Positions 5,719 to 52,793 of a DNA stretch of 64,000 nt are shown piece after piece (within the stretch, counting starts at the first letter, position 1; each line of letters begins with the position of its first letter). Origin of the DNA: Chitinophagales bacterium (GTDB taxonomy: Bacteria; Bacteroidota; Bacteroidia; Chitinophagales; Saprospiraceae). The position numbers and the translations under genes were made by a program. A model generated the notes under the pieces. That model was not told where the DNA came from. It saw only the letters and a list, made by a program, of their open reading frames with translations, and searched no databases. The stretch covers positions 124,001 through 188,000 of the forward strand of contig JAAFJN010000006.1 in NCBI GenBank assembly GCA_013298845.1, given 5' to 3'.

Positions 5719-5749
5719 TTTGTTAGCAAGGAAAGATGCCATACTTTTG
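5719..5749 (+). promoter_or_regulatory. Promoter of the methyltransferase gene
   Basis: TTTG (5719-5722), 19 nt, then TACTTTTG (5742-5749): an exact TTTG-N19-TAnnTTTG Bacteroidota promoter. Transcription should begin near 5753-5756. That rules out the ATG at 5736 and leaves the ATGs at 5763 or 5781. The 290 bp before it (5428-5718) is AT-rich and holds no other feature I can recognise. Confidence 0.8.
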
Positions 5750-5780
5750 TACCCATTGTATAATGTTGTATAACTTGGTT

Positions 5781-7019
5781 ATGAAAGAATATCTAACTTT
5801 ATCTGAAGTATCGGAAAGACTTGGTAAAAATAAAGAGACATTAAGAAGATGGGATCGGGAAGGGAAACTCAAAGCTATTCGAGAGCCAATGAGTAATTAT
5901 CGCCTATATTCAAAAAAAGATGTTCACAATCTTTTTCCTGAATACTTTTCTTCACTAGAACAAGAAGATGTATCAAATTATGTTGATCCCGACAAAACGT
6001 TCACCGTTATTGAACTATTTGCAGGAGCAGGGGGGTTAGCAATCGGCCTAGAGAAGGCTGGATTGAAATGTGTTGCGTTAAATGAAATTGACAAATTCGC
6101 TTGTCAGACATTGCGTAAGAATCGACCTCATTGGAATGTTCTTGAGGGAGACATCAAGCAGTATAGTTTTGAGGACTACAAGAATAAAGTTGATGTAGTA
6201 ACAGGTGGCTTCCCCTGCCAAGCGTTTAGTTATGCGGGTAAAAAATTAGGTTTAAATGATGCGAGAGGAACATTATTTTATGAATTTGCCAGAGTAGTGA
6301 ATGAAACGCAGCCTTTAATATGTATTGGCGAAAATGTACGGGGATTATTATCGCACGAAAATGGGAAGACTTTAGAGGGTATGATTTCAATTTTAGATGA
6401 AATTGGATATAATGTTGTACCTGTACAAGTATTAAAAGCTATTAATTTTAAAGTTCCTCAGAAAAGAGAACGCCTTATTTTAGTTGGAATAAGAAAAGAT
6501 ATAAACATTCCTTTTGAATACCCAAAAGCATATAAAAAAATATACACACTTCAAGATGCTCTAAAAAAAGGCGTTTTATATGATAGTGATGTTCCCTCTT
6601 CAACAGGTGCAAAGTATCCAAAGAGCAAGAAAAGTATTCTAGATCTTGTTCCCCCTAAAGGATATTGGAGAGATTTGCCAGTAGATATTCAAAAAGAATT
6701 TATGGGAAAAAGTTACTATTTGACAGGCGGAAAAACAGGGATGGCTAGGCGAATCGGTTGGGATGAACCTTGCCTAACATTAACCTGTAGTCCGGCTCAA
6801 AAACAAACTGAAAGATGCCATCCAGACGAGACGCGTCCATTTACAGTACGTGAATATGCAAGAATACAAACATTTCCAGACGAATGGCAATTTGAAGGTC
6901 CAGCAGCCCAACAATATAAACAAATAGGAAATGCAGTTCCTGTCAACTTAGGGCGAGAAGTTGGTTATTCCATTATTGCATTTTTAAATAAGTACTATAA
7001 ATCTTTGAATTTAAAATAA
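5781..7019 (+). CDS. DNA (cytosine-5) methyltransferase with N-terminal MerR-like HTH
   Basis: Modification enzyme of about 412 aa, adding a methyl group to C5 of cytosine in its target site. The N-terminal MerR-type helix-turn-helix (about 5-48: LTLSEVSERLGKNKETLRRWDREGKL) could let the enzyme control its own promoter. The methyltransferase part follows: motif I FAGAGGLAIGL (about 80), motif IV GGFPCQAFS with nucleophile near C146, motif VI ENVRG, motif VIII QKRERLILVG, and motif X QIGNAVPVNLG near the C-terminus. The start at 5781 follows from the promoter at 5742-5749. The partner endonuclease is convergent, and the two coding ends overlap by 25 bp. The AT-rich composition and codon use differ from the flanks, suggesting transfer. 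By analogy with the partner family the target may be GGNCC. Confidence 0.93.
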   Translation: MKEYLTLSEVSERLGKNKETLRRWDREGKLKAIREPMSNYRLYSKKDVHNLFPEYFSSLEQEDVSNYVDPDKTFTVIELFAGAGGLAIGLEKAGLKCVALNEIDKFACQTLRKNRPHWNVLEGDIKQYSFEDYKNKVDVVTGGFPCQAFSYAGKKLGLNDARGTLFYEFARVVNETQPLICIGENVRGLLSHENGKTLEGMISILDEIGYNVVPVQVLKAINFKVPQKRERLILVGIRKDINIPFEYPKAYKKIYTLQDALKKGVLYDSDVPSSTGAKYPKSKKSILDLVPPKGYWRDLPVDIQKEFMGKSYYLTGGKTGMARRIGWDEPCLTLTCSPAQKQTERCHPDETRPFTVREYARIQTFPDEWQFEGPAAQQYKQIGNAVPVNLGREVGYSIIAFLNKYYKSLNLK

Positions 7020-7759
7020 TATCCGTAATTTTCTATGGCTATTTGATCTAAGATGGTTCTACTATTAGCGCTTGCCAAGTCTGTAATTTCTTTTATTGCT
7101 GAAATCTCGGTTTTAGGAGACGTTATCCCTTTGCTTTTTAAATAGTCATCAGTTGCTGTGGGTAATATTTTATAAAGTTGAAAAAAAGCATCGTCAAGGC
7201 CCGTAAGTTTTGCATAAAACTTATCACCTGAAATTTTGTAAACGCGACTATGACGATACTCTTTCCCGTTGATTTCGCCTACCCACAATTCATCAAAACT
7301 GTTTTTAGCAAATATTTGCACCCAATAACATTTTGCTTGTTTGTGTCTATCAGCAAATTCTTTAAGTTTCCGATATAAACTTTCAGCAGCACTACTGTTC
7401 ATTGTGTTGTGTTTGTTCTTTATATCTGCGAACAAGGTGTTATCTGACGCCTTAATATCATAACCAGACGCTCTTGCAGATTGATAACCACTTATGCCGC
7501 CTAGTATTTGTTCATGGAAGGTGCCGATTGAATTATTTACAGACTTGTCGATTTGCCTTAAAATTTCAGATGTAATAACGTTTTCTGCCGTCAATCCTTG
7601 AAATTTCGCATCAAAAGTTAATTTAATTACATCTACTTTATTAGTATAGAAATCACTTTTAGTCAACTTTTTTTGCGCTTTTACATAAGAATCATGCAAA
7701 TTACTGATGCAAGATAGTAGATGCGCATCTGAAATGAAACTAAGGTATTTGTTAGCCAT
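6995..7759 (-). CDS. Type II restriction endonuclease, Eco47II/Sau96I family
   Basis: 254-aa endonuclease paired with the convergent C5 methyltransferase. It resembles the Eco47II family along its length: TFDAKFQGLTAENVITSEIL, QIDKSVNNSIGTFHEQILGG, then YDIKASDNTLFADIKNKHNT with a D...D-x-K acidic/lysine cluster that probably forms the catalytic centre, and CYWVQIFAK, GEINGKEYRHSRVYKISGD. Known members (Eco47II, Sau96I) recognise GGNCC; that specificity is inherited from the family and not shown here. The ORF is intact. Its 3' end overlaps the methyltransferase gene by 25 bp, so convergent transcription may tune the balance of the two proteins. Confidence 0.88.
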   Translation of the reverse strand: MANKYLSFISDAHLLSCISNLHDSYVKAQKKLTKSDFYTNKVDVIKLTFDAKFQGLTAENVITSEILRQIDKSVNNSIGTFHEQILGGISGYQSARASGYDIKASDNTLFADIKNKHNTMNSSAAESLYRKLKEFADRHKQAKCYWVQIFAKNSFDELWVGEINGKEYRHSRVYKISGDKFYAKLTGLDDAFFQLYKILPTATDDYLKSKGITSPKTEISAIKEITDLASANSRTILDQIAIENYGYYFKFKDL

Positions 7760-40868: not shown

Positions 40869-41242
40869 TCAAATTTTGATGACCCTGCTCACCACCCTTT
40901 GGTTGCCGCATACGAGTTGACAAACATAGAGGCCACTTGGTAATTCGCCCATTGGAATTTGGAGCGTACTGGTGTTTTTCCCGCGTGCCAGACAGATACA
41001 CTGTCGCCGCTTTGGTGGAACAGGTAATTATTTACTTTGCGGAGTGTCAGCCCATTAATAACGGTATCACCGGTGCTTTTAAAAACATCAATTAAGCCCA
41101 ATATTTTGGTGGAATCCCAATAAACGGATTCTCTATCAATGATGCTATTGTACGCCCATTCTGCTCCAATGGGCGCAAATTCGGTCTGGGCCTTTAGTGT
41201 TGTTGCGAAAAGAGGAAATAAGAAAAGGATAAAGTGTTTCAT
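40869..41242 (-). pseudogene. T9SS protein with large internal deletion
   Basis: The frame starting at 41242 encodes a signal peptide (MKHFILFLFPLFATTLKAQ) and about 65 residues typical of secreted T9SS proteins (FAPIGAEWAYNS...). It then runs out of frame at about 40980. In the next frame lies an intact end of a type A sorting domain: LQIPMGELPSGLYVCQLV... ending VIKI and TGA (40869-40871). The ends are joined with the middle lost and the frame shifted. The 100 bp on the trpGD side and the 225 bp on the operon side (41243-41467) hold nothing I recognise. Confidence 0.8.
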
Positions 41243-41467
41243 GTTTTGGTAAAATTTTAAAGTGGTGAATTGATTGTTTTTTATTGTATTTTTTAATGTG
41301 TAGTGGTTTGAGTGAAAATGGCTTACATCTAAAGTCCCAGCGGTGGAGAAGTCAACCACTTGGCATCTTTCGATTTTGGAAAATATTAAAACAGTAGTTA
41401 ATTATCTAACTATATAGTAGGCGAATTTCGCTTTTTGAATTAAATTTTTTATGGCATTTGAGTCAAA

Positions 41468-42298
41468 TTAGTGATCCTTGTTGTATGCAAAAAGATTTTG
41501 AGCGAAGGTTTTATCAACGCTCAAATTATTGATACCTTGAAAACAATACTGGTTTGTACCAATAAAATTGGCTGCTAAGCCTAAGAAGTAAGGCTTCCAG
41601 AAGCGATTTTTAGCCTTGTTGACAATTTTTTGGTATGTCGGATCATCGCGAAGAGTTTTGACTTTGCCTGAACTTGGTGAATAAAAGTTGCCTAATACAA
41701 AGTCGATGGCCAAAACAATATCCATAGGAGGATAAAGTAGCCTGGGTGCTTCCAAAAGAAGTACTTCTCCGTATTTTATTTGGCCTTGATTTATTTCTTT
41801 ACCTCCAAAATGGAGATGATAAAGTGGGTGGTCAAAATCTGGATTATCATCTGGAGTGCCATCACTTTTTTTATCAGGATGGCGATCAAAATGCCAAGAT
41901 GCTTTCGCTATATGGCTACTAGAATCTCCAATAGTGATAATCAATTGGAGGCTAAAACCTGGAACATGAATACTCCCCCTTGAGACTGGCCTTATCGGAT
42001 CTACACATTCAATGTCGGAGACATGGCGGATACCGCTCATGTGTGAAATTATCTTTATGACCGCATCTCTTTCAAATTTCTCGTATCCTATGGGGCAAAT
42101 GTTTTTACCTAAATCAAGATTCTTGAAAGTAATGACAGTCTCTTCTAAAATCCAACAGTTATCTTTTGCTTCTACTGTTAGTTTTTCGGCGGATGTTTTA
42201 ATTTTATTGCTGTCAATAATATCTTCATAATTAATCAACAATCGTTGCAGCCGCATTAAATCATCTTTCATTTCGATAGCAATATCACTTTTGGCCAT
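41468..42298 (-). CDS. Unknown His-rich protein, last gene of six-gene operon
   Basis: 276 aa, no family I recognise. Visible: an N-terminal helical part (1-60), then a beta-rich middle with a histidine-rich cluster WHFDRHPDK (H136, H140) and DFDHPLYHLHFGG (H157, H161, H163) that could bind metal. The C-terminal helical part holds FWKPYFLGLAANFIGTNQYCFQGINN. No signal peptide or membrane helix. The start codon lies inside the 3' end of the receiver gene (14-bp overlap), so translation is coupled. It is last in the operon, where effector genes often sit; a nuclease or other effector role is only a guess. Confidence 0.75.
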   Translation of the reverse strand: MAKSDIAIEMKDDLMRLQRLLINYEDIIDSNKIKTSAEKLTVEAKDNCWILEETVITFKNLDLGKNICPIGYEKFERDAVIKIISHMSGIRHVSDIECVDPIRPVSRGSIHVPGFSLQLIITIGDSSSHIAKASWHFDRHPDKKSDGTPDDNPDFDHPLYHLHFGGKEINQGQIKYGEVLLLEAPRLLYPPMDIVLAIDFVLGNFYSPSSGKVKTLRDDPTYQKIVNKAKNRFWKPYFLGLAANFIGTNQYCFQGINNLSVDKTFAQNLFAYNKDH

Positions 42299-43391
42299 TT
42301 TCTTTTGCTAGATTTTTTAGATATTCAAGACGGTCTTTTTCAATAGGGTTCAACTTAATGCCCTTGCTCTTCCGGTCTAAAATGGAAGATAAAGAAAGAT
42401 AGCGTTCCTCTTGCCATGCTCTTAAAGTATTAGATTGAATACGAAGCCCATCGGAGGGGTCAATTGGTTGACGAGTCGCTTCGCAAATAGCCCAAAAATC
42501 ATTGCTAAGACAAAAGGGGAGTTTTTTCGCAGCAACCAGATTAGATAACTTTGTTTTATTTTTAAGCATTTCTACTCGTTCGTCTGCGCTATAATATTGA
42601 GGATGCTTCTCATTGATTGTTGTTTTCCACCAATTTATTAGTCCATCCGCCCAATATCGCGACCAACCTTTTGATAATATACCTTTGTAAACAAAGCGCG
42701 GTGTGAGGATATTTTCTCGTAAAACAGTCCAATCAGATGATTCTGACTTGTCAATACCTAATCTTGCAGCCAGTGTATCCTCTTCGATTAAAATACCTGG
42801 TATTAAAATGATTTCACACAATATGAATTTCACAATATTGTGAGGTATTTTTTTGTCAATGAGGTCGCCTAACTCATTTTTGAGCCTTGAGTCTATATTT
42901 ACATCTGCCGGTGTTTGAAACCAATCTGACAATTTGCTATTTTGAATTTGTTGGAATGCCTCCGACAAAGCATTTAGTTCCCTAACTACATTTTCGCTAT
43001 CCCCAGAAAAATCATCTTTTGAGTAAACCTTCAAGAAAAGATCATGTCCAGTTCCATCTCGTTCATATGAAGATGTGAAATCTGGATTGGCAGAGCAGAG
43101 TACAACAGGTACGTCTCGTTTAATCTGCTTGTCATTGACTAAGAATCGTATATGTTGTGCTAAAGATTCAGCACTATATGTGATTCCAGAAGGCTGATTT
43201 CCTTCATATAATCTCCAATCTAAAATAATCCCATCTGCTTTTGGAAATATTTCCTTGATTTTTATAAGATCACTCTCCCATGAGGTTAATTGTATTGGGG
43301 TAATTTTAAAATTCTCCGATAAATTTATTTTTCGGAGAATACTATCGCTTTGCCCAACAGTATTATCATCAAGCAGAAAATAAGTCATCAT
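42285..43391 (-). CDS. Receiver-domain protein with unknown C-terminal domain
   Basis: 368 aa. Residues 1-145 look like a response-regulator receiver: acidic pair YFLLDDN (D8, D9), phospho-acceptor candidate in GIILDWRL (D58), conserved small/hydroxyl position in VVLCSAN (S100) and lysine in FLKVYSK (K121). The remainder (150-368) is not a known DNA-binding output; it is mostly helical with WTVLRENILTPRFVYKGILSKGWSRYWADG and a C-terminal basic helix. It overlaps the 3' end of the dual-GHKL gene by 23 bp. The pairing suggests the GHKL protein phosphorylates D58, an inference from the presence of an H-box upstream. Confidence 0.8.
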   Translation of the reverse strand: MMTYFLLDDNTVGQSDSILRKINLSENFKITPIQLTSWESDLIKIKEIFPKADGIILDWRLYEGNQPSGITYSAESLAQHIRFLVNDKQIKRDVPVVLCSANPDFTSSYERDGTGHDLFLKVYSKDDFSGDSENVVRELNALSEAFQQIQNSKLSDWFQTPADVNIDSRLKNELGDLIDKKIPHNIVKFILCEIILIPGILIEEDTLAARLGIDKSESSDWTVLRENILTPRFVYKGILSKGWSRYWADGLINWWKTTINEKHPQYYSADERVEMLKNKTKLSNLVAAKKLPFCLSNDFWAICEATRQPIDPSDGLRIQSNTLRAWQEERYLSLSSILDRKSKGIKLNPIEKDRLEYLKNLAKENGQK

Positions 43392-45663
43392 TTATTTGTT
43401 CTTTAATTTGTTCGTCAGTAGCCTTAGGTAACTCAATCCTGATACATGTCTTGAAACCATCTGGTGGGTTTGATACAAAAATTTCGCCTTCATAAGATTC
43501 TATGATGTCCGATACAATTTTCAATCCTAAACCAGATCCAATAAGTTCTTCATTTTGAGAAGCATTTCGGCCTGCCGGAGTTGATGTCGTAAAAAAAGCA
43601 TTAAATATTTTATTTTTATGAATATCTTCGATTCCAGTCCCATTGTCACAAAATTCAAAAACTATTCTGCTGTTTTCTTCTTTTACTTGAATCAGAATTT
43701 TAGCACTTACCCTTGCCTTAATTGTTGCTTTATTGGCATTTGAATACAAGTTAAATAAAATAGAACTCCACTCAGAGGGGTGCATGGGACAAGTAAATAG
43801 GTCATATCCATGAAAAAAAGTTTCAATATTGACCTGGTTTTTATCCGCAGTTCTTTTTATAATGGCTAAAAAATCCCTAACTACTATCCTAATATCAATT
43901 GGTACTAACTCCCTTTTTAGATTATTCCGAATGGTTTCGTCAAAATATGCTGCATATGTTCTAAACTGTTCAAAATTTTGGCTTAGACCATTTATACTAT
44001 CTTTAAGTGTATCTGCATCTGCGTACTTAGAAAGCACTGCTATTTCTGATTGGAAAATAGGATTAAATTGCCTGATTTCGTGGACAAACTCGCCAATTGA
44101 TAAGCCGATACCTGCTAATACGCGTAGCATAGCAGTTTCGCCAAGTTCTCGGTTAAGAGTTTGTTTTATATTTTCTAGGGCTTGCTGTGCTTTTTCTTTT
44201 TGGGAACTAGTATTTTGTTTATCAGTATCCTCATTGGCATTGAAAAAATCTTCAATGGTTTCGAAGTCAGATTGCGTTTTATCTTCGCTTTTATGCTGTT
44301 CTCGTTTTGCTTTTTTCTCTAAAAAGCCTATTGAACTTTCAACAATGTTTCTGCAAGATTCAAAAGATTTTGCAAGAAAATCAACAAGTTCTTCAAACGC
44401 AGCGTTTTGTAACAAACCTTCGCGGCTTGATGTTTCTTCAAATAAACTCCCTTCAATATCAACTATCTCCACAAAGCCAAATAAATTTCTGTTTGACAGG
44501 GGGACTCGTCGAGAGTGAGAGGCCATGTTTACTTTTTCATCTAAGCCTAACCAATCATCACCTGCTTCCCCATATGGTGCAACCCTAAATCCATTTCTGT
44601 AAAGCCTAATTCCACTTGATGTCTTAGAGAAGTCATTAACTTTTTTTAATTCAGTAGAAGAAATCCCTATCCCATCATGTAGGTAGTATTCTGCTCTGTT
44701 ATATATGTAGTAATATGCTTTGAAGTGAACGTTTTTTACGTATTTAAATTTTTCCACTTCTTTTCTGTCTCGTCCAGCACTAATCTCCCTTAGGCTATCC
44801 AAAGAATCAATTTCCAAACTTTTGCTTTCAACGGAGCAGTAACCATCCCAATTATCATCTATATATCCTTGAAAAACCGCTAAGGATTTATCAAAAAACG
44901 ACTTGTCAATATCGTTAATGATTTCTATTTCAGCATTAATCTGTTTCCGGCAAACTACTGAAAACGAGTCCTCATCCTGTACCCCAAAAATAATTTTACT
45001 ATTTTTTAACCTATCTGATAAATAAGAAGGCTGTAGCAAATCTGAAACATATCTAAATACTCTCTGTATTTCTGCATATGTCCAGCCCTCTCTTATTGGT
45101 TCAATATTGAGGGTTGTACCATGAGGTTTTTCTTTTGGTACTTCTGATATTTCATTGGATATTAGATTGATATCCGTGTCAATATTGTAATCATTCCAGT
45201 TGATCACTACACGTAATGCCGTAGGAGAATCCGCTGTTTGAGTAGTTATGATCAACTTTTCGCCTAATCTCTGTGTGGCAAAACGACCAATACCCTTTCG
45301 GCCTGCTCTTTTTCGATTGAATTTTGGTGAAACGGGATTGTGTATTTTTGATGTTGATGAAAGCCGCATGAAGCCATTTTTAATGGCGTTTCTATCCATT
45401 CCGTGTCCGTTATCCTCAATTGTAAGGGATCCTCCGGCAAGATCAGTATTTTTGAATGTTAGTACGACCTCCGTAGCATCTGCATCATAAGCATTTTTAA
45501 CCAACTCTGCAACAGCCGTTTCTTGTCGCCCGACCAATTCTCTACCCAGCCGGTCAATAATGCCAGCATCAACTGAGAATTTGACCGTGTCTTTGTCAAT
45601 TTCTTCAAGTTGTTGGTCAAGAGCCTTAAGTTGTTTAATAAGTTCTTCTCTATTGGTTTCCAT
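43369..45663 (-). CDS. Dual GHKL ATPase with histidine-kinase-like C-terminus
   Basis: 764 aa, cytoplasmic, no membrane helix. The first ATPase (about 30-170) is HSP90/MORC-like: AVAELVKNAYDADA (N-box), IEDNGHGMD and GRKGIGRFATQRLG. A middle region (200-440) resembles the transducer part of such proteins. A charged coiled-coil region (440-505) leads to an H-box candidate LSIGEFVHEIRQFN (H528). A second ATPase follows (about 590-745) with the full histidine-kinase set: NLYSNANKA (N-box), DNGTGI (G1), FNAFFTTS (F) and GSGLGLKIV (G2). So one chain carries two nucleotide-binding GHKL units. A receiver gene follows with a 23-bp overlap and a PP-loop enzyme gene precedes by 12 bp. Probably a switch that senses a target through the first module and signals through phosphotransfer. 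Confidence 0.85.
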   Translation of the reverse strand: METNREELIKQLKALDQQLEEIDKDTVKFSVDAGIIDRLGRELVGRQETAVAELVKNAYDADATEVVLTFKNTDLAGGSLTIEDNGHGMDRNAIKNGFMRLSSTSKIHNPVSPKFNRKRAGRKGIGRFATQRLGEKLIITTQTADSPTALRVVINWNDYNIDTDINLISNEISEVPKEKPHGTTLNIEPIREGWTYAEIQRVFRYVSDLLQPSYLSDRLKNSKIIFGVQDEDSFSVVCRKQINAEIEIINDIDKSFFDKSLAVFQGYIDDNWDGYCSVESKSLEIDSLDSLREISAGRDRKEVEKFKYVKNVHFKAYYYIYNRAEYYLHDGIGISSTELKKVNDFSKTSSGIRLYRNGFRVAPYGEAGDDWLGLDEKVNMASHSRRVPLSNRNLFGFVEIVDIEGSLFEETSSREGLLQNAAFEELVDFLAKSFESCRNIVESSIGFLEKKAKREQHKSEDKTQSDFETIEDFFNANEDTDKQNTSSQKEKAQQALENIKQTLNRELGETAMLRVLAGIGLSIGEFVHEIRQFNPIFQSEIAVLSKYADADTLKDSINGLSQNFEQFRTYAAYFDETIRNNLKRELVPIDIRIVVRDFLAIIKRTADKNQVNIETFFHGYDLFTCPMHPSEWSSILFNLYSNANKATIKARVSAKILIQVKEENSRIVFEFCDNGTGIEDIHKNKIFNAFFTTSTPAGRNASQNEELIGSGLGLKIVSDIIESYEGEIFVSNPPDGFKTCIRIELPKATDEQIKEQINDDLFSA

Positions 45664-45675
45664 TGTTATAGGTAG

Positions 45676-46779
45676 TTATATGAAACAAGCAGCACAGCCA
45701 ATCTCCTCTGCATCATCCAAAATATCGGTTAAGAAAGGAGATGCAGTGCGTTGTTTACCGCTCGCTTTTTTCAAATGTTCCAATTTTATTTGTGCAATTC
45801 TTTCGGGTTTAATTAGATCTTCAAGGCTCTCATTTTGCCCCCATGTGTAACCTTCTTTTTCATATTCCATTGCTTTGTAAAACATTTCGGGGTGTTGTTC
45901 GTACAGCCAGACCCATTCAATACGTTGTTGAAAAAAACAAAAGTAGCAGCCTGAACGGGAACGAGCGTATTGGCCTTTTTGATTGTTTACTTCAAAGTCT
46001 ATTAGTTTATAATATGCGGGCACACCGACACCGCTTTCCTCTAATATCCGGAAAATATCTTTTCTAACGAGTACTTCATCGTTTTCAACCAATGGGAAAT
46101 ACTGTTCATGCGCTAATGGATAGTTGGTGCCTTTTAAAAATGCAAATACTAGTCGATTAAAATCTTTTACATTGGAGTCAAGCAACAAATGTAGTTTTTG
46201 TTCCATTGTAAAAGAACGCTCAAGGGGTGACATCAGCAATTCCTCAAAACGTTGCGATTTTTTTTCAAGGTCAATGCTGACATATAAATCCATCAATCGT
46301 TCAATATTGGCAATATTCAATACTTTACGAATAACGTCCTCACTCCAGATGTTTTTACGAAATGGAAAAATAGACTGAATATTCGACTTTTTAGAAATGT
46401 AACCCTCTCTATTCTCATCACCTCTAATCCCAACGTAAGACACGACCGGATCTGTCCCAACGTATTGTTCAAAAGGTTCTAATTTGAGTTTTTGAGTACA
46501 CCATCGAATAATTGAAGATGGCAGATACCCCCCTTTCAATTTTAAGTGAAAATCAAATGAATTTTCATCAGGGTGCTGAACCGCTTTCAACTCCTTTATT
46601 TTTTTTCCTAAATAGACTTCTAAGTTGTCAATTAAACGATAGGTCTCATCTAGTTCTTTTCCGGTATCACAGGTATAATAGTCAATATCCAAGGTTGGAT
46701 ACCGCTGTTTCATATATATCGCTAAGGCCGCAGAATCTTTACCCCCGGAGATACCGAGTACGTGACGTATCTGGCTCAT
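45676..46779 (-). CDS. PAPS-reductase-fold PP-loop enzyme (DndC/BrxP-like)
   Basis: 367 aa. The ATP-pyrophosphatase PP-loop SGGKDSAALA (about 11-20) is followed by CDTGKELDETY, RWCTQKLKLEPFEQY (C94) and VGIRGDENREGY, hallmarks of the PAPS reductase superfamily. A cysteine pair in SRSGCYFCFFQQR (C278, C281) resembles that of DndC, and a second pair closes the protein (GCAAC, C362/C365); an iron-sulfur cluster or sulfur relay is plausible. DndC adenylates DNA for phosphorothioation, and BREX type 4 carries a PAPS-reductase-like BrxP. This gene overlaps the ATPase gene by 4 bp (ATGA). Sulfate assimilation is unlikely given this context and the lack of other cys genes. Confidence 0.85.
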   Translation of the reverse strand: MSQIRHVLGISGGKDSAALAIYMKQRYPTLDIDYYTCDTGKELDETYRLIDNLEVYLGKKIKELKAVQHPDENSFDFHLKLKGGYLPSSIIRWCTQKLKLEPFEQYVGTDPVVSYVGIRGDENREGYISKKSNIQSIFPFRKNIWSEDVIRKVLNIANIERLMDLYVSIDLEKKSQRFEELLMSPLERSFTMEQKLHLLLDSNVKDFNRLVFAFLKGTNYPLAHEQYFPLVENDEVLVRKDIFRILEESGVGVPAYYKLIDFEVNNQKGQYARSRSGCYFCFFQQRIEWVWLYEQHPEMFYKAMEYEKEGYTWGQNESLEDLIKPERIAQIKLEHLKKASGKQRTASPFLTDILDDAEEIGCAACFI

Positions 46780-49700
46780 GTATTTTGTTTTTTCATCAAA
46801 TCTTGCAGTGTTTGTATTAACGCTGCAATGTTGATCGTTTTATCTGCACTTAATTGCGCTTTCAAATGCGCCTGCAAGGTATTTATTTCTGTTTGTTTTT
46901 TCTTAGGTAGTCGCACTATTTTTTTTTGAATATCGTCAAAACTGGCAATTTCTAATTGAAAAACACTTTCGGTTTCTTCGTTGATGTCCGTTTGGCTAAT
47001 GTTAGTCAGGCTATCTAAGTCAGAAATTATCGTTTTGAACTTATCGTAAAGTAGCACTTCTTCCTCATCCCGGAGGCTTTCGATGTTTTTCCCAATCAAG
47101 GACTGGGCCAAGGATGCTAACCAAGCCTTACGGTCATCCAATTCAGAATACAAGCGTTGCACAAATGTTTTTTGATGAGGAAGTAGCAAATGTTTTTTCA
47201 GATCTTTATAACGCTCTCTGAATAGTACTTGATACTCCGTAAACGGCATACTTTCGTAAATTACTTCTGCCTGAATGAATGCTTCGTAACGGTTAAGTAA
47301 TTCGTCAAAACTGGTGCGTATTTCCCGAATGGCATCTTGAAGTTTTGCTGCGTATTGTTCTAAATGCTCGCGTTTACTTTGCAAATGCTTACTCGAATAC
47401 CCCAGTGCAAGCGGAAAATCTTCAAAAAATGTTTTTTCCGGGTCAGTTGAATTAGCAATAGCACCGCGAACTGCCAATGCCTCCTTGCTTAGACGTTTAG
47501 TGTTTTTTGCGTATTCAGGCAGCCCTTTAAAGAATATCAAAAATGGCTTTATGGTTTCAATAAACGTTTGCTGCGTAGGTTGGGTTGTTTCTTGCTGATT
47601 CAGGAATAAGCGATAACTATTGAAGATATCTAACCGAATACCTTCTAAATCAAAGGCTTTTACTTCATAATCTTGCGGGTACTTATTGACTAGTTCTAGT
47701 ATTTCATCATTAATATTAGGAATAAAAACGCCCTTTTGAAAGAGCGCAAAATCGTATCTTTTGATGTAAAGAAATGTTGGTAGCCAAAATTCAATAAGTC
47801 CCTGTTTAATTTTAAAAGGTCGTTTTGAGATGATTTCCGTTAACTCAGACACTCTGCGACGATTCTTCCGCGTACTATGCAAGAAAGTATTCGATTCTTT
47901 CCAGAGTGCTGTAAAAGTTGAGTTGTCTGTAATTTCTATCGGGTGCGCGGGGTTCTTAGAATCCGGCCAGAGGCCATTTTCACGCAATAAGGTAATAAAA
48001 ATTGTTTTTTCGGGCGGAAACCGATCTTTATCAAGCCCCATATTTTCAAGGCCCCAATTTGCGGTGAGCGCCTTCAGGAAATTGCGTTTAGCCGTATAAA
48101 TTGGTGCAGGTAGTTTATGCCGATTGACCAACTCATTTTTATAATGAGGTGCTTTATCATAAATTGATTCACAAATTTCACTTAATTTAGCATTGAAAGT
48201 TCGTTTGTCATTAATTTGAATTTGTTGGCCTTCATATACCCAACAGATCTCGTTAGCACTATTACTGTACAAGTTGTTAAGTATATAATGGTTTAGTAAT
48301 GATTGCTGATGGGTTAAAATACCATCAAACTCTTTAAGTGCTACTTTGTCCCGTTGATTGACATCTCGGAGTGCTTTTTTAGTACGTTCTATTTCAAAAA
48401 GTAATTCTTTGATAGCCTTTGAATTGAGGTAAAAACCATATAGCACGGCTTCTTGTTGTGCCGATGAAGTTTTTACGATGTCCTTTATGCTAAGTTTATC
48501 GTTAAAAACCAAGTTGATAAAACCGTCTATTTCACCTTGAGGTAATAGTTTTTCAAGCGGGTAATTCGAGATTTTAAACTCAAATAGCCTTGGAGTACCA
48601 GTTTTGTAATAGTATGATTTAGCGAAAATAGGCTCTAATGCGTAGTTTTTTTCCACCAAAGTAGCAATATCGGTAATTTCTACCTGCTTTCCGGCGGCCT
48701 CTAGGGTCGAATAAATGTCAACGTCAGTACCTTCAAAGAGGATAAAACGCTTATTATGTCGTTGATAGAATATAGTTTGATTTTTTTCTAGTTCCTCAAT
48801 GATGTTTTCTGCATCATCGATACCTAAAGATACTTGCGCATACTTTATCCAGAATATTTTATCTAAATTACTCCCGTGCTGAGCAAAAAGTTGAAGCAGC
48901 CCAATTGATTTTATGATTTTCTTGGCATTATCAACCTCCTTTTCCCAGTTGTTTTCAGATTTATCTAAAGCGTTTTTAATGCTTGACCAGATGGCTTTGT
49001 CAGGATTGGCCTGGCTAGTCAAATAAGAATAAAAGTTGAAGATCAGGTAATCATACACATTACTAAGGTTATAAAACGGGTTACTCCGCTTACGATAACC
49101 GTGTAAACCGGTGTAATCAGGATTTTCTAAAAAAGAAAATAGCGAACGTTCATTTTGACCATAGCGTTGTAGGGCCAGTGTAATAACGTTGGCTGAAAAC
49201 AAATCCAGCGGAAAAAGTTTCAATCCTTGTTCTGCTCGAATTTCGGAAAAAAAAATAAATGCTTTTGCTCCTGTATGCAGTTGAAGCATTTGTTGCACTG
49301 CTTTTTTGTCTGGTTTTCCTAAATCTAACTGCTCCATTCGCTCAGCCGCTAGAAATAGTAATTGTTCTACCGTTTCATTGAAGGCAATATCGCGGAAGCG
49401 GCCCTTGACTTTTCGCCATTCTTCACGTTGCATCGCACTTAATTGAGAAGAATATGCTTCAAAACTTTGATGTACAGTTGTTAGTAAGACGATGTTATGG
49501 TTAGGGTTATTGCAGAATTCAGCCAATTGCTGAATAAAGTAGATTTCTTCTTCTGGGTTGTTTTTGGCTGCATATTCCAAAAATTTGCCAAACTCATCTA
49601 AAAGTAAAAATAAAACTTTGTCTCCCTTACCTAAGTTATGGTAACGCTGGTAAACCTCGGCTAGAATGTCTTGCGTTGTTGCATTTTCTTCAAGGTTAAG

Positions 49701-50006
49701 TTGTTGCTGTAAATAAGATTTTAAGGACTTGTACTCGCCTACGCATGAAATAAAATCAATTTTAGAGTCCTTTTCAAAAGGAAACTGAAAATAATGTTTT
49801 TGGCCACGGATACTTTGTTCAAAAGCCCAAAGGAAAGCGGATTTCCCTGTCCCAAATGAACCAATTAAGTTAAATGATCTGCCCCCTTGCTGCAAACTAT
49901 CCCAAATTATCTGCGCGACTTGTGTCGCGTTGTGAGTCGGGATATACGTCATTTCCCTGTTTTTATCCCGGATAATGTGTACGGATGGCGAGTATTTAGT
50001 TAGCAT
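46776..50006 (-). CDS. Large P-loop ATPase of the six-gene operon
   Basis: 1076-aa cytoplasmic ATPase. Walker A GSFGTGKSAF (about 49-58) and Walker B VLFLLLDEFGKFLEY (D137, E138) are followed by a sensor-like ...NIVLLTTVHQSFEAY. The long remainder is helical and charged, with a coiled coil (about 540-570 and 870-950). Size, position after DUF4007 and neighbouring PP-loop enzyme recall the BrxC/PglY-type ATPases of BREX, but I cannot prove homology. The start at 50006 overlaps the DUF4007 stop by 11 bp. Confidence 0.85.
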   Translation of the reverse strand: MLTKYSPSVHIIRDKNREMTYIPTHNATQVAQIIWDSLQQGGRSFNLIGSFGTGKSAFLWAFEQSIRGQKHYFQFPFEKDSKIDFISCVGEYKSLKSYLQQQLNLEENATTQDILAEVYQRYHNLGKGDKVLFLLLDEFGKFLEYAAKNNPEEEIYFIQQLAEFCNNPNHNIVLLTTVHQSFEAYSSQLSAMQREEWRKVKGRFRDIAFNETVEQLLFLAAERMEQLDLGKPDKKAVQQMLQLHTGAKAFIFFSEIRAEQGLKLFPLDLFSANVITLALQRYGQNERSLFSFLENPDYTGLHGYRKRSNPFYNLSNVYDYLIFNFYSYLTSQANPDKAIWSSIKNALDKSENNWEKEVDNAKKIIKSIGLLQLFAQHGSNLDKIFWIKYAQVSLGIDDAENIIEELEKNQTIFYQRHNKRFILFEGTDVDIYSTLEAAGKQVEITDIATLVEKNYALEPIFAKSYYYKTGTPRLFEFKISNYPLEKLLPQGEIDGFINLVFNDKLSIKDIVKTSSAQQEAVLYGFYLNSKAIKELLFEIERTKKALRDVNQRDKVALKEFDGILTHQQSLLNHYILNNLYSNSANEICWVYEGQQIQINDKRTFNAKLSEICESIYDKAPHYKNELVNRHKLPAPIYTAKRNFLKALTANWGLENMGLDKDRFPPEKTIFITLLRENGLWPDSKNPAHPIEITDNSTFTALWKESNTFLHSTRKNRRRVSELTEIISKRPFKIKQGLIEFWLPTFLYIKRYDFALFQKGVFIPNINDEILELVNKYPQDYEVKAFDLEGIRLDIFNSYRLFLNQQETTQPTQQTFIETIKPFLIFFKGLPEYAKNTKRLSKEALAVRGAIANSTDPEKTFFEDFPLALGYSSKHLQSKREHLEQYAAKLQDAIREIRTSFDELLNRYEAFIQAEVIYESMPFTEYQVLFRERYKDLKKHLLLPHQKTFVQRLYSELDDRKAWLASLAQSLIGKNIESLRDEEEVLLYDKFKTIISDLDSLTNISQTDINEETESVFQLEIASFDDIQKKIVRLPKKKQTEINTLQAHLKAQLSADKTINIAALIQTLQDLMKKQNT

Positions 50007-50865
50007 GATAATGTTCTTTTAAAAAGGAATAAGGATTGGGTTTGTTTCCCTTAAATTGAAGTTCCCGGATACCTGCATCATCCTTGAATACAATTAGATC
50101 AGCGTATTTCTCTGCAATCGCTTCCATTTTTGAGTACATACCAGCCTCATTAATTGCAAAGATGGATCCAGGGCTATCCCAATCGGAGAGCAAGGTTTGG
50201 AAGTTAATGGATATTCCATACTGCTCATTTTCTGATAGTGCGAATAGTATAACTTCGTTCGGCAAATTTCTACGCTCATTTGGTTCTATTGTAAATAGCG
50301 TTTTGCCTAATGGCCTTACAAGCCGAAGTTCAGTCAGAATTCCCCCAATGATGTCTTCTTTGTCTTTTGCTTCGGGGTCGCCTACATACATTCTGATAAA
50401 AACAACAAAGTCTGAATCTATTGTGTTCTGCTTATTTGTAGTTTCCGAAAATAAGTCAAATTTGAATTTGGCAAAATTCCAAAACTGCTCTTTGGTGAAT
50501 TCTATTTTTTCTTTACGGAATTCGTTAAAAAGCACATTATATAAGGTCGCATGATTTTTTTTTACCAATTTATAATGAAGCAACCAAAGACTTGCATCAT
50601 CCTCAAGATAAGGATCAAACCCATCATCTGCGAATAAATGATGTGCAAATTCGGTCAGATTATCGCTACTATCTAACAAGTCAAAGGCGCGCATCCAGTA
50701 GCGTACAGATCCGACCATATTTTTCCCTATACCAAGATGCACTACCGCATCTTCCGCACTAAAAGATTTTCCACTTTTAACGTAATCATAGCCTTTTTTA
50801 AGCCATAAATGCCTACACTGAAAGGTTTCGTGACCAGAAAATACGGGTTTTATCGCAGTTGCCAT
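49996..50865 (-). CDS. DUF4007 family protein, first gene of operon
   Basis: 289 aa with the DUF4007 signature at the N-terminus: PVFSGHETFQCRHLWLKKGYDYV, FSAEDAVVHLGIGKNMVGSVRYWMRAFDLL, suggestive of a winged-helix DNA-binding head. DUF4007 genes are repeatedly found beside PAPS-reductase-fold genes in DNA sulfur-modification and BREX-like loci; function unproven. The ATG at 50865 (MATAIKPVFSG) is used; upstream frame is low-similarity. Divergent from the RNA ligase gene across 193 bp, where the operon's promoter should lie: on the minus strand, TACCTTTA (a one-base departure from TAnnTTTG) is visible near 50894-50901. Confidence 0.87.
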   Translation of the reverse strand: MATAIKPVFSGHETFQCRHLWLKKGYDYVKSGKSFSAEDAVVHLGIGKNMVGSVRYWMRAFDLLDSSDNLTEFAHHLFADDGFDPYLEDDASLWLLHYKLVKKNHATLYNVLFNEFRKEKIEFTKEQFWNFAKFKFDLFSETTNKQNTIDSDFVVFIRMYVGDPEAKDKEDIIGGILTELRLVRPLGKTLFTIEPNERRNLPNEVILFALSENEQYGISINFQTLLSDWDSPGSIFAINEAGMYSKMEAIAEKYADLIVFKDDAGIRELQFKGNKPNPYSFLKEHYHAN

Positions 50866-51058
50866 GAGTATTGAAATGATTTTGAAAATGGAGGTAAAGG
50901 TAGTATTTATTGGGCGCACGTAGCGAATTATTTAACACTTTTTGAATCAAAATGTTTGTTTTTTTTGCCGCGATGACGCATTCTGCCATTATTTGTTTGC
51001 CCACCACCCGGGAACCTCAACACCCGGTCTGCTTGTTCAACCGTCAAACACCCGCACC

Positions 51059-51733
51059 ATGTCGGAACTTATTTCAGAAAAATACCCACGCACGTATCAT
51101 TTTCCCTTTTCGGAAGGGGCCATTAACGATGACCGTATTCAGGAGCATTGGCAACAGTTGCTCAGCGGCGAGGTGGTTTTGAGCGAAAAATTAGACGGTG
51201 AAAATACCTGCATCAAATCGGATGGGGTGTACGCGCGTTCGCACGGGGCCGTCAACCGCAACCCGTGGGCGCGGCCCATTTGGGAAATTTGGGAGCGGGT
51301 GGGGCGTTCATTGGGGGAGGTACACGTGTTTGGCGAAAATTTGTACGCCATTCACAGCATCAAATACGCGCGGTTGACCCATTACTTTTTTGTTTTTGGG
51401 GTGCGGATCGGTACCCAATGGCTGTCGTGGGATGAAACGGTGGAATACGCGCAATTGCTCGATTTGCCGGTGGTGCCCGTGCTTGCCCGTGGGCAATTGG
51501 ACGCGGCAACCTTGCGGCAACTGATTCTGGCACAGCAATCCGGCGGCAGCCACTTTGGCGGTACCAGCGAAGGGGTGGTTTGCCGAACGGCCGGTGCTTT
51601 TCACAACGATGATTTCCCCCGCGTGGTGTTAAAATTTGTCCGAAAAAACCACGTACAAACCGATGAACACTGGACTAGAAACTGGAAAAAAGCCCAACTT
51701 TATGACCCTAATGGAACTTATTACCCCTATTAG
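51059..51733 (+). CDS. ATP-dependent RNA ligase (Rnl2-like)
   Basis: 224-aa nucleotidyltransferase joining RNA 5'-phosphate and 3'-OH ends. Motif I SEKLDGENT with the AMP-accepting lysine (K44), motif III-like HVFGENLYAIHSI, motif IV GTSEGVVCR and motif V RVVLKFVRK are all seen. The ATG at 51059 places motif I at the usual distance. The next gene, an HD-Pnk end-healing enzyme, starts inside this gene, so healing and sealing activities are produced together. Substrates are probably tRNA or other RNAs cut by ribotoxins (inference). Confidence 0.88.
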   Translation: MSELISEKYPRTYHFPFSEGAINDDRIQEHWQQLLSGEVVLSEKLDGENTCIKSDGVYARSHGAVNRNPWARPIWEIWERVGRSLGEVHVFGENLYAIHSIKYARLTHYFFVFGVRIGTQWLSWDETVEYAQLLDLPVVPVLARGQLDAATLRQLILAQQSGGSHFGGTSEGVVCRTAGAFHNDDFPRVVLKFVRKNHVQTDEHWTRNWKKAQLYDPNGTYYPY

Positions 51734-52793
51734 CCCCAATTGGAACGCTTTGCTGCAACACGATTGGGCACGGGCGATGCAGGCGTGCCCGCAGGAACCC
51801 GAATACCACGCCGAGGGCGACGTGTGGACCCATACCTGCATGGTGATGGATACTTTGCGCACTTTCCCGGAGTACCAGGCGTTGCCGCCCGCGGAGCAAC
51901 ATGTGTTGTTGTTGGCGGCACTCCTGCACGATGTGGCCAAACCCCAGTGTACCGTTATCGAAAACGGGCGTATTTCGTCGCCGCGCCACGCCAAAGTGGG
52001 CGAAAAAGAGGCCCGAACAATCCTTTGGGGACTTGATTTTGCCACCCGGGAGCAGGTGTGCGCGTTGGTGCGGTTGCACGGTTTGCCGTTGTGGGGTTTT
52101 GAAAAAAGCAATCCCGTGCGCAGCGCGATTTTGGCCAGTTGGCGGGTGCGCAACGAACTCACGTATCTTTTGGCGAAAGCCGATGTGTTGGGCCGCATTT
52201 GTGATACGCAGGCGGAGTTGTTGTACCGCTTGGAGATGTACCGCGAATTGTGCCTAGAAAACAACTGTTTTTACGCACCACACGTGCATTTTGACGCGCA
52301 CAGCCGGTTCCGGTACTATTGGTCCGACGAGACCTGGCCCGTTCAGATTTTTGACGATACGGCGTTCGAGATAGTAGTTTTGTGTGGCATTGCCGGAAGT
52401 GGTAAGGATACTTTTTACCAAAAACAGTACGCGCATTGGCCCGTAGTGAGTTTGGACCAAATTCGCAAAGAGCACAAAATTAAACCCGATGACCGCAGCG
52501 GACAGGGCAAAGTGGCGCAAATAGCCTACGAACGCGCCCGGGAATTTTGCCGAAAAAGACAATCCTTCGTGTGGAACAGCACCAACCTCACCGCCGAATT
52601 ACGCGCCCGGCTAATCCAAACTTTGCGGGTGTACAATCCGCGTTTTACCATTGTTTTTATCGAAACTTCGCAAAAAAACATTTACGAACGCCGCCGAAAC
52701 GACATTAACATCCAAGTATTGACCCGAATGGTGCAGCAGGTGGATATCCCGCTTACGGGAGAAGCCCACGAAGTCCGGTCAGAAATGACGTAA
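51702..52793 (+). CDS. HD-Pnk: HD phosphohydrolase / polynucleotide kinase
   Basis: 363-aa bifunctional RNA/DNA end-healing enzyme. The N-terminal HD domain (about 30-175): WTHTCMVMD (H44), LLHDVAKPQ (H76, D77), RHAKVGEKEA (H96) and ADVLGR; it should open 2',3'-cyclic phosphates and remove 3' phosphates. The C-terminal P-loop kinase (about 220-355): VVLCGIAGSGKDTF, VSLDQIRKE and VWNSTNLT, phosphorylating 5'-OH ends. The architecture matches the HD-Pnk family characterised from Runella slithyformis, also a Bacteroidota. The start could be 51702 or 51711; both lie inside the ligase gene. Confidence 0.88.
   Translation: MTLMELITPISPNWNALLQHDWARAMQACPQEPEYHAEGDVWTHTCMVMDTLRTFPEYQALPPAEQHVLLLAALLHDVAKPQCTVIENGRISSPRHAKVGEKEARTILWGLDFATREQVCALVRLHGLPLWGFEKSNPVRSAILASWRVRNELTYLLAKADVLGRICDTQAELLYRLEMYRELCLENNCFYAPHVHFDAHSRFRYYWSDETWPVQIFDDTAFEIVVLCGIAGSGKDTFYQKQYAHWPVVSLDQIRKEHKIKPDDRSGQGKVAQIAYERAREFCRKRQSFVWNSTNLTAELRARLIQTLRVYNPRFTIVFIETSQKNIYERRRNDINIQVLTRMVQQVDIPLTGEAHEVRSEMT

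Follow-up and report, generated by a model that had tools for sequence, protein, structure and literature searches.

A Chitinophagales operon joins Ssp-type DNA phosphorothioation genes to a histidine kinase–receiver cassette, a candidate exchangeable restriction arm

Two restriction arms have been described for the Ssp phosphorothioation genes: SspE, which is stimulated by phosphorothioate, and SspFGH, which is encoded by three genes next to sspBCD and is directed against unmarked DNA (PMC8092258). The same source counted 2,678 sspBCD loci, of which 2,211 (printed as 83.9%) had neither sspE nor sspFGH, and asked about other partners. Here, we analyzed a six-gene operon in a 64,000-nucleotide stretch of a Chitinophagales bacterium genome (GCA_013298845.1, contig JAAFJN010000006.1, positions 124,001 to 188,000; hereafter the window), in which sspB, sspC, and sspD precede genes for a paraMORC-like GHKL ATPase–histidine kinase (HK), a receiver protein (RR), and a predicted effector (X). 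We propose that the operon is an Ssp-type phosphorothioate restriction-modification (R-M) system with HK-RR-X as an exchangeable, phosphorelay-gated restriction arm against unmarked DNA, and we put the probability of this reading at roughly 0.6.

The first three genes are sspB, sspC, and sspD, the DNA phosphorothioation machinery, and PADLOC detected all three modification proteins together (Table 1). The motifs SGG(K/R)DS, RWCT, CxFC, and CxxC were found in 25 of 25 aligned SspD sequences. The initial annotation, made from the nucleotide sequence, had noted extra Cys pairs in the PAPS-reductase-fold protein; both pairs are present, and their conservation (25/25) makes them an ordinary trait of SspD. 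The insert of the window's SspD was missing from nine short SspDs in the alignment, and a subset of SspD with an added domain and a cysteine-rich region has been described (PMC12839542). A scan of 395 Bacteroidota genomes for SspD matched 85 at E 0.001, among which 21 matches had E <1e-47 (9 short and 12 long, including that of the window's genome) and 64 weaker or partial matches were unused. A housekeeping cysteine desulfurase can serve Ssp (PMC12839542). Elsewhere in the window's genome, four desulfurase-like genes matched the desulfurase of locus L009, the best with 48% identity over amino acids (aa) 1-365 of 366. A cysteine desulfurase-type gene adjoins the combined cassette and ssp set in L009 and L012, the two loci examined for one.

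The alignment of 52 kinases showed H528 in all members, N642 in 51, and G711 in 50, with the residues of the N, G1, and G2 boxes in 50 or 51 of the 52. The GHKL motif residues that we examined in the N-terminal domain, including E53 and N57, were present in 52/52. RR had no match above Pfam cut-offs; a profile of 49 RR relatives weakly matched solved receivers (best E 0.0038), and D9, D58, and K125 were conserved in 49, 49, and 48 of 49, respectively, with position 8 occupied by Asp in 37 and by Glu in 12. Judged by the intact H box, the N and G boxes, and the receiver Asp and Lys residues, HK and RR are a two-component pair. The conserved His and Asp residues are compatible with a phosphorelay that would decide when X acts. 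These results, together with the Pfam and PADLOC matches, uphold the receiver domain of the initial annotation, recognized by the weak profile match and by Asp9, Asp58, and Lys125, as well as its DUF4007, P-loop ATPase, PAPS-reductase-fold, and dual-GHKL/kinase identities.

X is conserved around a small set of residues (H161 in 49/49; P158, P185, and R186 each in 48/49; D138 in 47/49; H157 in 46/49; H136 in 45/49). It had no match among solved structures, and in PADLOC five families were each matched by one member (best E 0.006). DUF2290 was picked for a profile test because its motif appeared to resemble that of X. In hhalign, the X profile matched DUF2290 with a probability of 83.7, an E-value of 8e-6, and a score of 42.6, compared with 23.4 (probability 4.3) for the best of 150 column-shuffled decoys and 19.3 for the reversed profile; control scores of DUF2290 against the RR and kinase profiles were 10.8 and 17.8. 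At the profile level, X appears to be distant kin of DUF2290, resembling it in a core Asp followed by HPxxH and then by R, P, and F-L-NF(Y). A system of an ATP-dependent helicase and a DUF2290 protein is active against T7 (PMC9122126) and is also named in PMC10952713 and PMC12278908; unlike its DUF2290 component, X has no Pfam match, and the six genes include no UvrD-like helicase. TumE was considered as another possible relative of X and was carried by 3 of 148 genomes. A search of viral contigs with the kinase alignment and one DUF2290 protein as queries yielded no confirmed relative.

The distribution of the cassette was surveyed by scanning an alignment of three kinases against genome contigs and keeping the best 80 loci, and the cassette counts are lower bounds. 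The 52 close loci described below consist of 48 of these 80 plus L004, L006, L122, and the window; the remaining 32 were omitted (kinase open reading frame (ORF) <690 aa or <500 bits). RR and then X followed the kinase in 47/52 by automatic annotation. X was present in 50, including L010 and L020, where it was read in a gap, and L047, where another ORF held the receiver slot of the annotation; the other two, L024 and L044, end at the contig. Kinase and receiver genes lay at most 60 bp apart in 48 of the 50 loci in which both were annotated in line.

An N6/Eco57I-type methylase accompanied the cassette in 33 of these loci, Ssp in 7, and an upstream methylase in 7, and no partner was seen in 5. 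The 33 were called with our own profile (built from L004 and L006) at 70 bits or more anywhere in the locus, the methylase of L048 lying on the opposite strand and those of L011 and L013 being fragments; the seven upstream methylases were called by profile or NPPY motif. Pfam confirmed the methylase in the one locus scanned of each kind and detected no nuclease domain in either protein, so that a cut would fall to HK-RR-X. Many remoter kinase relatives also adjoin NPPY-bearing ORFs. The HK-RR-X half is thus without specificity for sulfur, N6-type methylases being the more frequent partners, and in this respect the earlier interpretation was wrong or incomplete. What does hold is its view that a module for sulfur modification is coupled to a kinase and a receiver and that this coupling recurs elsewhere. 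The complete six-gene set, on one strand and in one order, recurred in L007, L008, L050, and L122 as in the window. Of the two further Ssp-linked loci, L009 has divergent sspBCD and HK-RR-X halves, and sspB was unseen in L012 because the contig starts inside sspC. Among the 395 sampled Bacteroidota genomes, X occurred in three, namely the window's own, G579 (with sspBCD, L122), and G412 (L147), and HK-RR-X adjoined long-type SspD in 2 of 12 genomes, the window's and G579. At L147:8137-13639 (G412), a distant HK-RR-X relative precedes an ORF of 517 aa whose translation is methylase-like.

Phylogenetic trees of the kinase and of SspC gave different pictures of how the two halves are joined. Both are quick trees without bootstrap, and odd letter make-up was flagged in 9 of 52 kinases and 19 of 25 SspCs. 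In the kinase tree, which contains one flagged long branch (L042), the seven Ssp-linked kinases and L042 formed one starred clade; the Ssp label required 2 changes (mean of shuffles, 6.7; 0/500 as low) and the partner type 7 (shuffled mean, 18.0; 0/200 as low). In the SspC tree (25 rows, excluding the partial gene of L012, with long branches that meet), the six cassette-linked SspCs were interleaved with SspCs having other neighbors; starred branches forced at least four changes, and label clustering was no better than in shuffles (182/500 as low). Comparison of L122 with L120 added direct evidence. The sspBCD genes (5.3 kb, 79.5% DNA identity) and the 5.3 kb past the cassette (75.7%) are conserved, and the segment between them differs: where L122 carries HK-RR-X, L120 encodes a protein of 259 aa and an exonuclease of the DEDD type. 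No match extended beyond sspB on the far side. This pair shows one direct exchange of the partner as a unit.

Other partners were seen beside sspBCD. In two more long-type loci, L117 and L127, the neighborhood of sspBCD includes a GHKL protein together with a helicase or a GmrSD_N protein. Downstream of long-type sspBCD, L118:7604-9388 and L121:7177-9244 encode a protein kinase and a GmrSD_N-type protein, the latter scoring below the cut-off in L118. In L119:8558-9584 and L124:8803-9820, long-type sspBCD is followed by another candidate Ssp partner, a nucleoside deoxyribosyltransferase-like protein with an unassigned 212-aa protein. The short-type sspBCD loci L132, L135, and L136 contain kinases that score 333-366 bits on the HK profile; those of L132 and L135, the two scanned, fell just under the HEF_HK cut-off. 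The kinase gene lies about 4.5-5.4 kb past sspD in L136 and L135 and between sspC and sspD in L132, and the gene after it in L135 and L136 has a receiver-like start without a Pfam match. These loci are possibly another case, distinct from the present one, of Ssp paired with a paraMORC kinase.

We then compared the operon with the described systems. It shares SspB, SspC, and SspD with SspABCD-SspE and SspABCD-SspFGH and, as with SspFGH, has a three-gene arm beside sspBCD (PMC8092258). The arm here differs in consisting of a GHKL-kinase, a receiver, and X, and sspA is not adjacent. The SspE form was rejected on the basis that no GmrSD_N/DUF262 domain (PF03235) was found in the window's genome (0 matches at E 0.001; genome 98% complete); a control search with PF03235 was positive in 8 of 14 genomes. 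By Pfam, HK, RR, and X contain no P-loop or FtsK match, a result obtained without comparing SspFGH sequences or searching the genome for them. Type 4 BREX has homologues of SspB, SspC, and SspD (PMC12839542) and was rejected, as BrxL (PF13337) had 0 matches in the window's genome and no PglZ is encoded at the locus; the sole PglZ match belongs to a PorX-like receiver-PglZ protein encoded on a different contig. Dnd was rejected from searches with the six proteins: TIGR03183 scored 17.4 of 290.4 bits, and apart from weak PADLOC DndC hits to SspD (best 7.9e-6) there was no Dnd hit. The earlier statement that the genes at the locus make it neither Dnd nor BREX is therefore correct. Detocs, which combines a TPR-bearing kinase with a nucleoside-phosphorylase effector, was rejected because Pfam detected neither a TPR nor a nucleoside phosphorylase domain in the six proteins. 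One half of the set, SspB, SspC, and SspD, is assigned by PADLOC to a named system, Ssp, which the initial annotation had not identified.

The kinase half was also compared with GHKL proteins linked to R-M. The N-terminal GHKL domain is shared with the paraMORC and BbrUII/HgiDII proteins; HK additionally has a C-terminal kinase, and a BbrUII/HgiDII restriction enzyme was rejected at 81.1 bits (aa 28-198) against the NF050001 cut-off of 550. HEF_HK/Response_reg_2 pairs (PMC8011034) likewise combine a HATPase_c_3 and HATPase_c fusion with an adjoining receiver gene and are R-M-linked. The receiver here differs in length (368 aa versus 528-575 aa in four Pfam-matched proteins), and family membership was rejected since both Pfam cut-offs were missed. 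Profile similarity of RR to Response_reg_2 was weak (probability 7%; score 31.3 versus 21.0 for the top-scoring of 99 decoys) in a comparison whose alignment comprised six proteins, two of which (L135 and L136) match no Pfam family. The main text of PMC8011034 does not contain "phosphorothio", "DUF4007", "DndC", or "PAPS", and the available text of PMC10853773 contains none of "histidine kinase", "MORC", "GHKL", or "receiver". In the accessible part of PMC12839542, the one mention of a histidine kinase concerns a fusion to a Schlafen RNase, and response regulators appear in connection with PorX. A literature search for sspBCD and sspE with histidine kinase, covering open-access papers without supplements, returned nothing, and we found no description of an arm of the HK-RR-X type with Ssp in the open-access texts consulted.

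The proposed R-M system starts from the gene families, their co-occurrence, the one cassette difference between conserved flanks, and the conservation of catalytic residues. Judging from their families, SspB, SspC, and SspD would mark host DNA with sulfur from a cysteine desulfurase encoded elsewhere. HK may sense DNA, or a DNA-bound complex, in which the mark is missing, and phosphate would pass from His528 of HK to Asp58 of RR. Phosphorylation of RR would license X, which has a core similar to DUF2290 and is predicted to act as a nuclease-like effector. Moving or looping of DNA has been proposed for paraMORCs (PMC2292703) and may likewise be a task of the GHKL part here. We infer the sensing, target, direction of control, phosphotransfer, and nuclease activity in this scheme from sequence. 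Since methylases adjoin close relatives of the cassette, the arm would be expected to attack unmarked DNA, in the mode of SspFGH and DndFGH, and not to respond to the mark as a stimulus in the manner of SspE. As the same arm accompanies both methylases and SspBCD, an R-M restriction arm with a phosphotransfer switch is the simplest account.

A kinase–receiver pair with an effector-like third gene would also suit a free-standing, Detocs-like abortive-infection system that shares an operon with SspBCD and over which the mark has no control, and L042, L046, and L049 have no modification gene in the sequence at hand. We consider this unlikely: a methylase (called by profile or motif) is present in 40 of the 52 loci and Ssp in 7, the type of partner tracks the kinase tree, and the domains of Detocs are missing from the six proteins. 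Two-component pairs are often transcriptional regulators, and HK-RR might regulate the expression or activity of the modification genes with X as an accessory and no restriction. SspBCD orphans without a restriction partner have been raised as a possibility (PMC8092258). Such a role seems improbable, given that Pfam finds no DNA-binding output domain in RR, that X is missing solely from the two loci cut by contig ends, and that nuclease- or GHKL-type genes stand beside some other long-type SspBCD. There is also a slim chance of the reverse mode, in which phosphorothioate DNA stimulates the arm and unmarked DNA is spared, which is how SspE, another arm of SspABCD, works (PMC8092258); the cassette family, however, accompanies methylases, for which a protective logic is usual.

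Several observations weigh against the R-M reading itself. No sspA lies next to the operon, and no modifier was seen in five of the 52 loci, two of which end at contig ends. L042 (8892-14011) has HK-RR-X inside the Ssp kinase clade with no ssp gene in the sequence at hand and an HNH_2 endonuclease gene just upstream. HK and RR remained under the HEF_HK and Response_reg_2 cut-offs (PF19191, 13.7 of 24.1 bits; PF19192, 14.3 of 27 bits), and the C-terminal region of RR is conserved but has no assigned output domain. Homologues were picked with two patterns, and the conservation of E53 and N57 is partly selected because one of these contains the GHKL N-box. None of 49 X members matched any Pfam family, including DUF2290 (PF10053), at E 0.01, and the likeness of X to DUF2290 spans 60 columns at 83.7% probability. 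To our knowledge, DUF2290 has no known activity, and for this reason calling X a nuclease is a guess from context.

The six genes occupy 41468-50865 on the minus strand and, as first described, overlap or lie at most 12 bp apart (overlaps: sspB-sspC 11 bp, sspC-sspD 4 bp, HK-RR 23 bp, RR-X 14 bp; gap: sspD-HK 12 bp). The AT-richness seen in the initial annotation was confirmed: GC content is 37.0% in the operon and 49.7% in 10 kb on each side, and values in the rest of the window range from 46.9 to 50.7% (180 overlapping segments of 9.4 kb).

Table 1. Features of the operon, with positions in the window
Feature	Position	Strand	Basis
sspB (DUF4007), 289 aa	49996..50865	-	ATG at 50865; GTG start at 50919 also open; Pfam DUF4007 3.5e-76; PADLOC SspB 6.4e-101
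sspC, 1076-aa P-loop ATPase	46776..50006	-	PADLOC SspC 1389.7 bits, E=0, positions 1-1038 of 1039
sspD, 367-aa PAPS-reductase-fold sulfur transferase, long (insert-bearing) type	45676..46779	-	PADLOC SspD 6.1e-92, two pieces; Pfam PAPS_reduct 2e-6
Insert part of SspD, about 68 aa between two SspD profile matches	46099..46302	-	Gap in match; alignment
HK, 764 aa, paraMORC-like GHKL ATPase (aa 48-170) and histidine kinase (H528; HATPase_c aa 634-748)	43369..45663	-	Pfam HATPase_c_3 4.7e-26, HATPase_c 4.7e-23
RR, 368 aa, receiver domain (D9, D58, K125) and conserved C-terminal region	42285..43391	-	Weak profile match to solved receivers; residue conservation
X, 276-aa predicted effector; core H136, D138, H157-P158, H161, P185-R186	41468..42298	-	DUF2290 profile comparison; residue conservation

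To the left of the operon lie genes whose translations read as trp biosynthesis, and to the right are an RNA ligase and an HD/AAA protein. The RNA ligase adjoins a protein with HD and AAA_33 domains (50942-52793), and the two may be an RNA-repair pair flanking the island. Between the trp genes and X, a 156-aa ORF without a Pfam match (40889-41359) lies at the edge of the island and could derive from a secreted-protein gene by truncation. No integrase was noticed next to the operon, where neighboring genes were partly scanned, and the single tRNA of the window is at 1854-1928. A 20-nucleotide direct repeat (41431-41450 and 50938-50957; 85%) was rejected as an insertion mark, being 1 of 37 repeat families in the AT-rich stretch. 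In a second AT-rich patch at 5736-7759, the gene for a C-5 cytosine methylase that carries a MerR-type helix-turn-helix at its N terminus is convergent with one for an Eco47II-type restriction endonuclease; the two have the appearance of an ordinary type II R-M pair.

HK-RR-X is a defined, recurrent candidate restriction partner for some of the partnerless sspBCD loci, and the evidence points to its changing as a unit. We tentatively raise a broader possibility, in which one His-Asp cassette of GHKL-kinase, receiver, and DUF2290-like nuclease reads the absence of a self-mark, whether N6-methyladenine or phosphorothioate, through the paired modification complex and frees its effector by phosphotransfer. 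If true, such an arm, independent of mark chemistry, would constitute a class of R-M gated by two-component signaling. The operon ties phosphorothioation to a kinase/receiver cassette that otherwise stands beside methylases, and through this link the reading of self and non-self could be compared between two types of mark while the type of arm stays the same.

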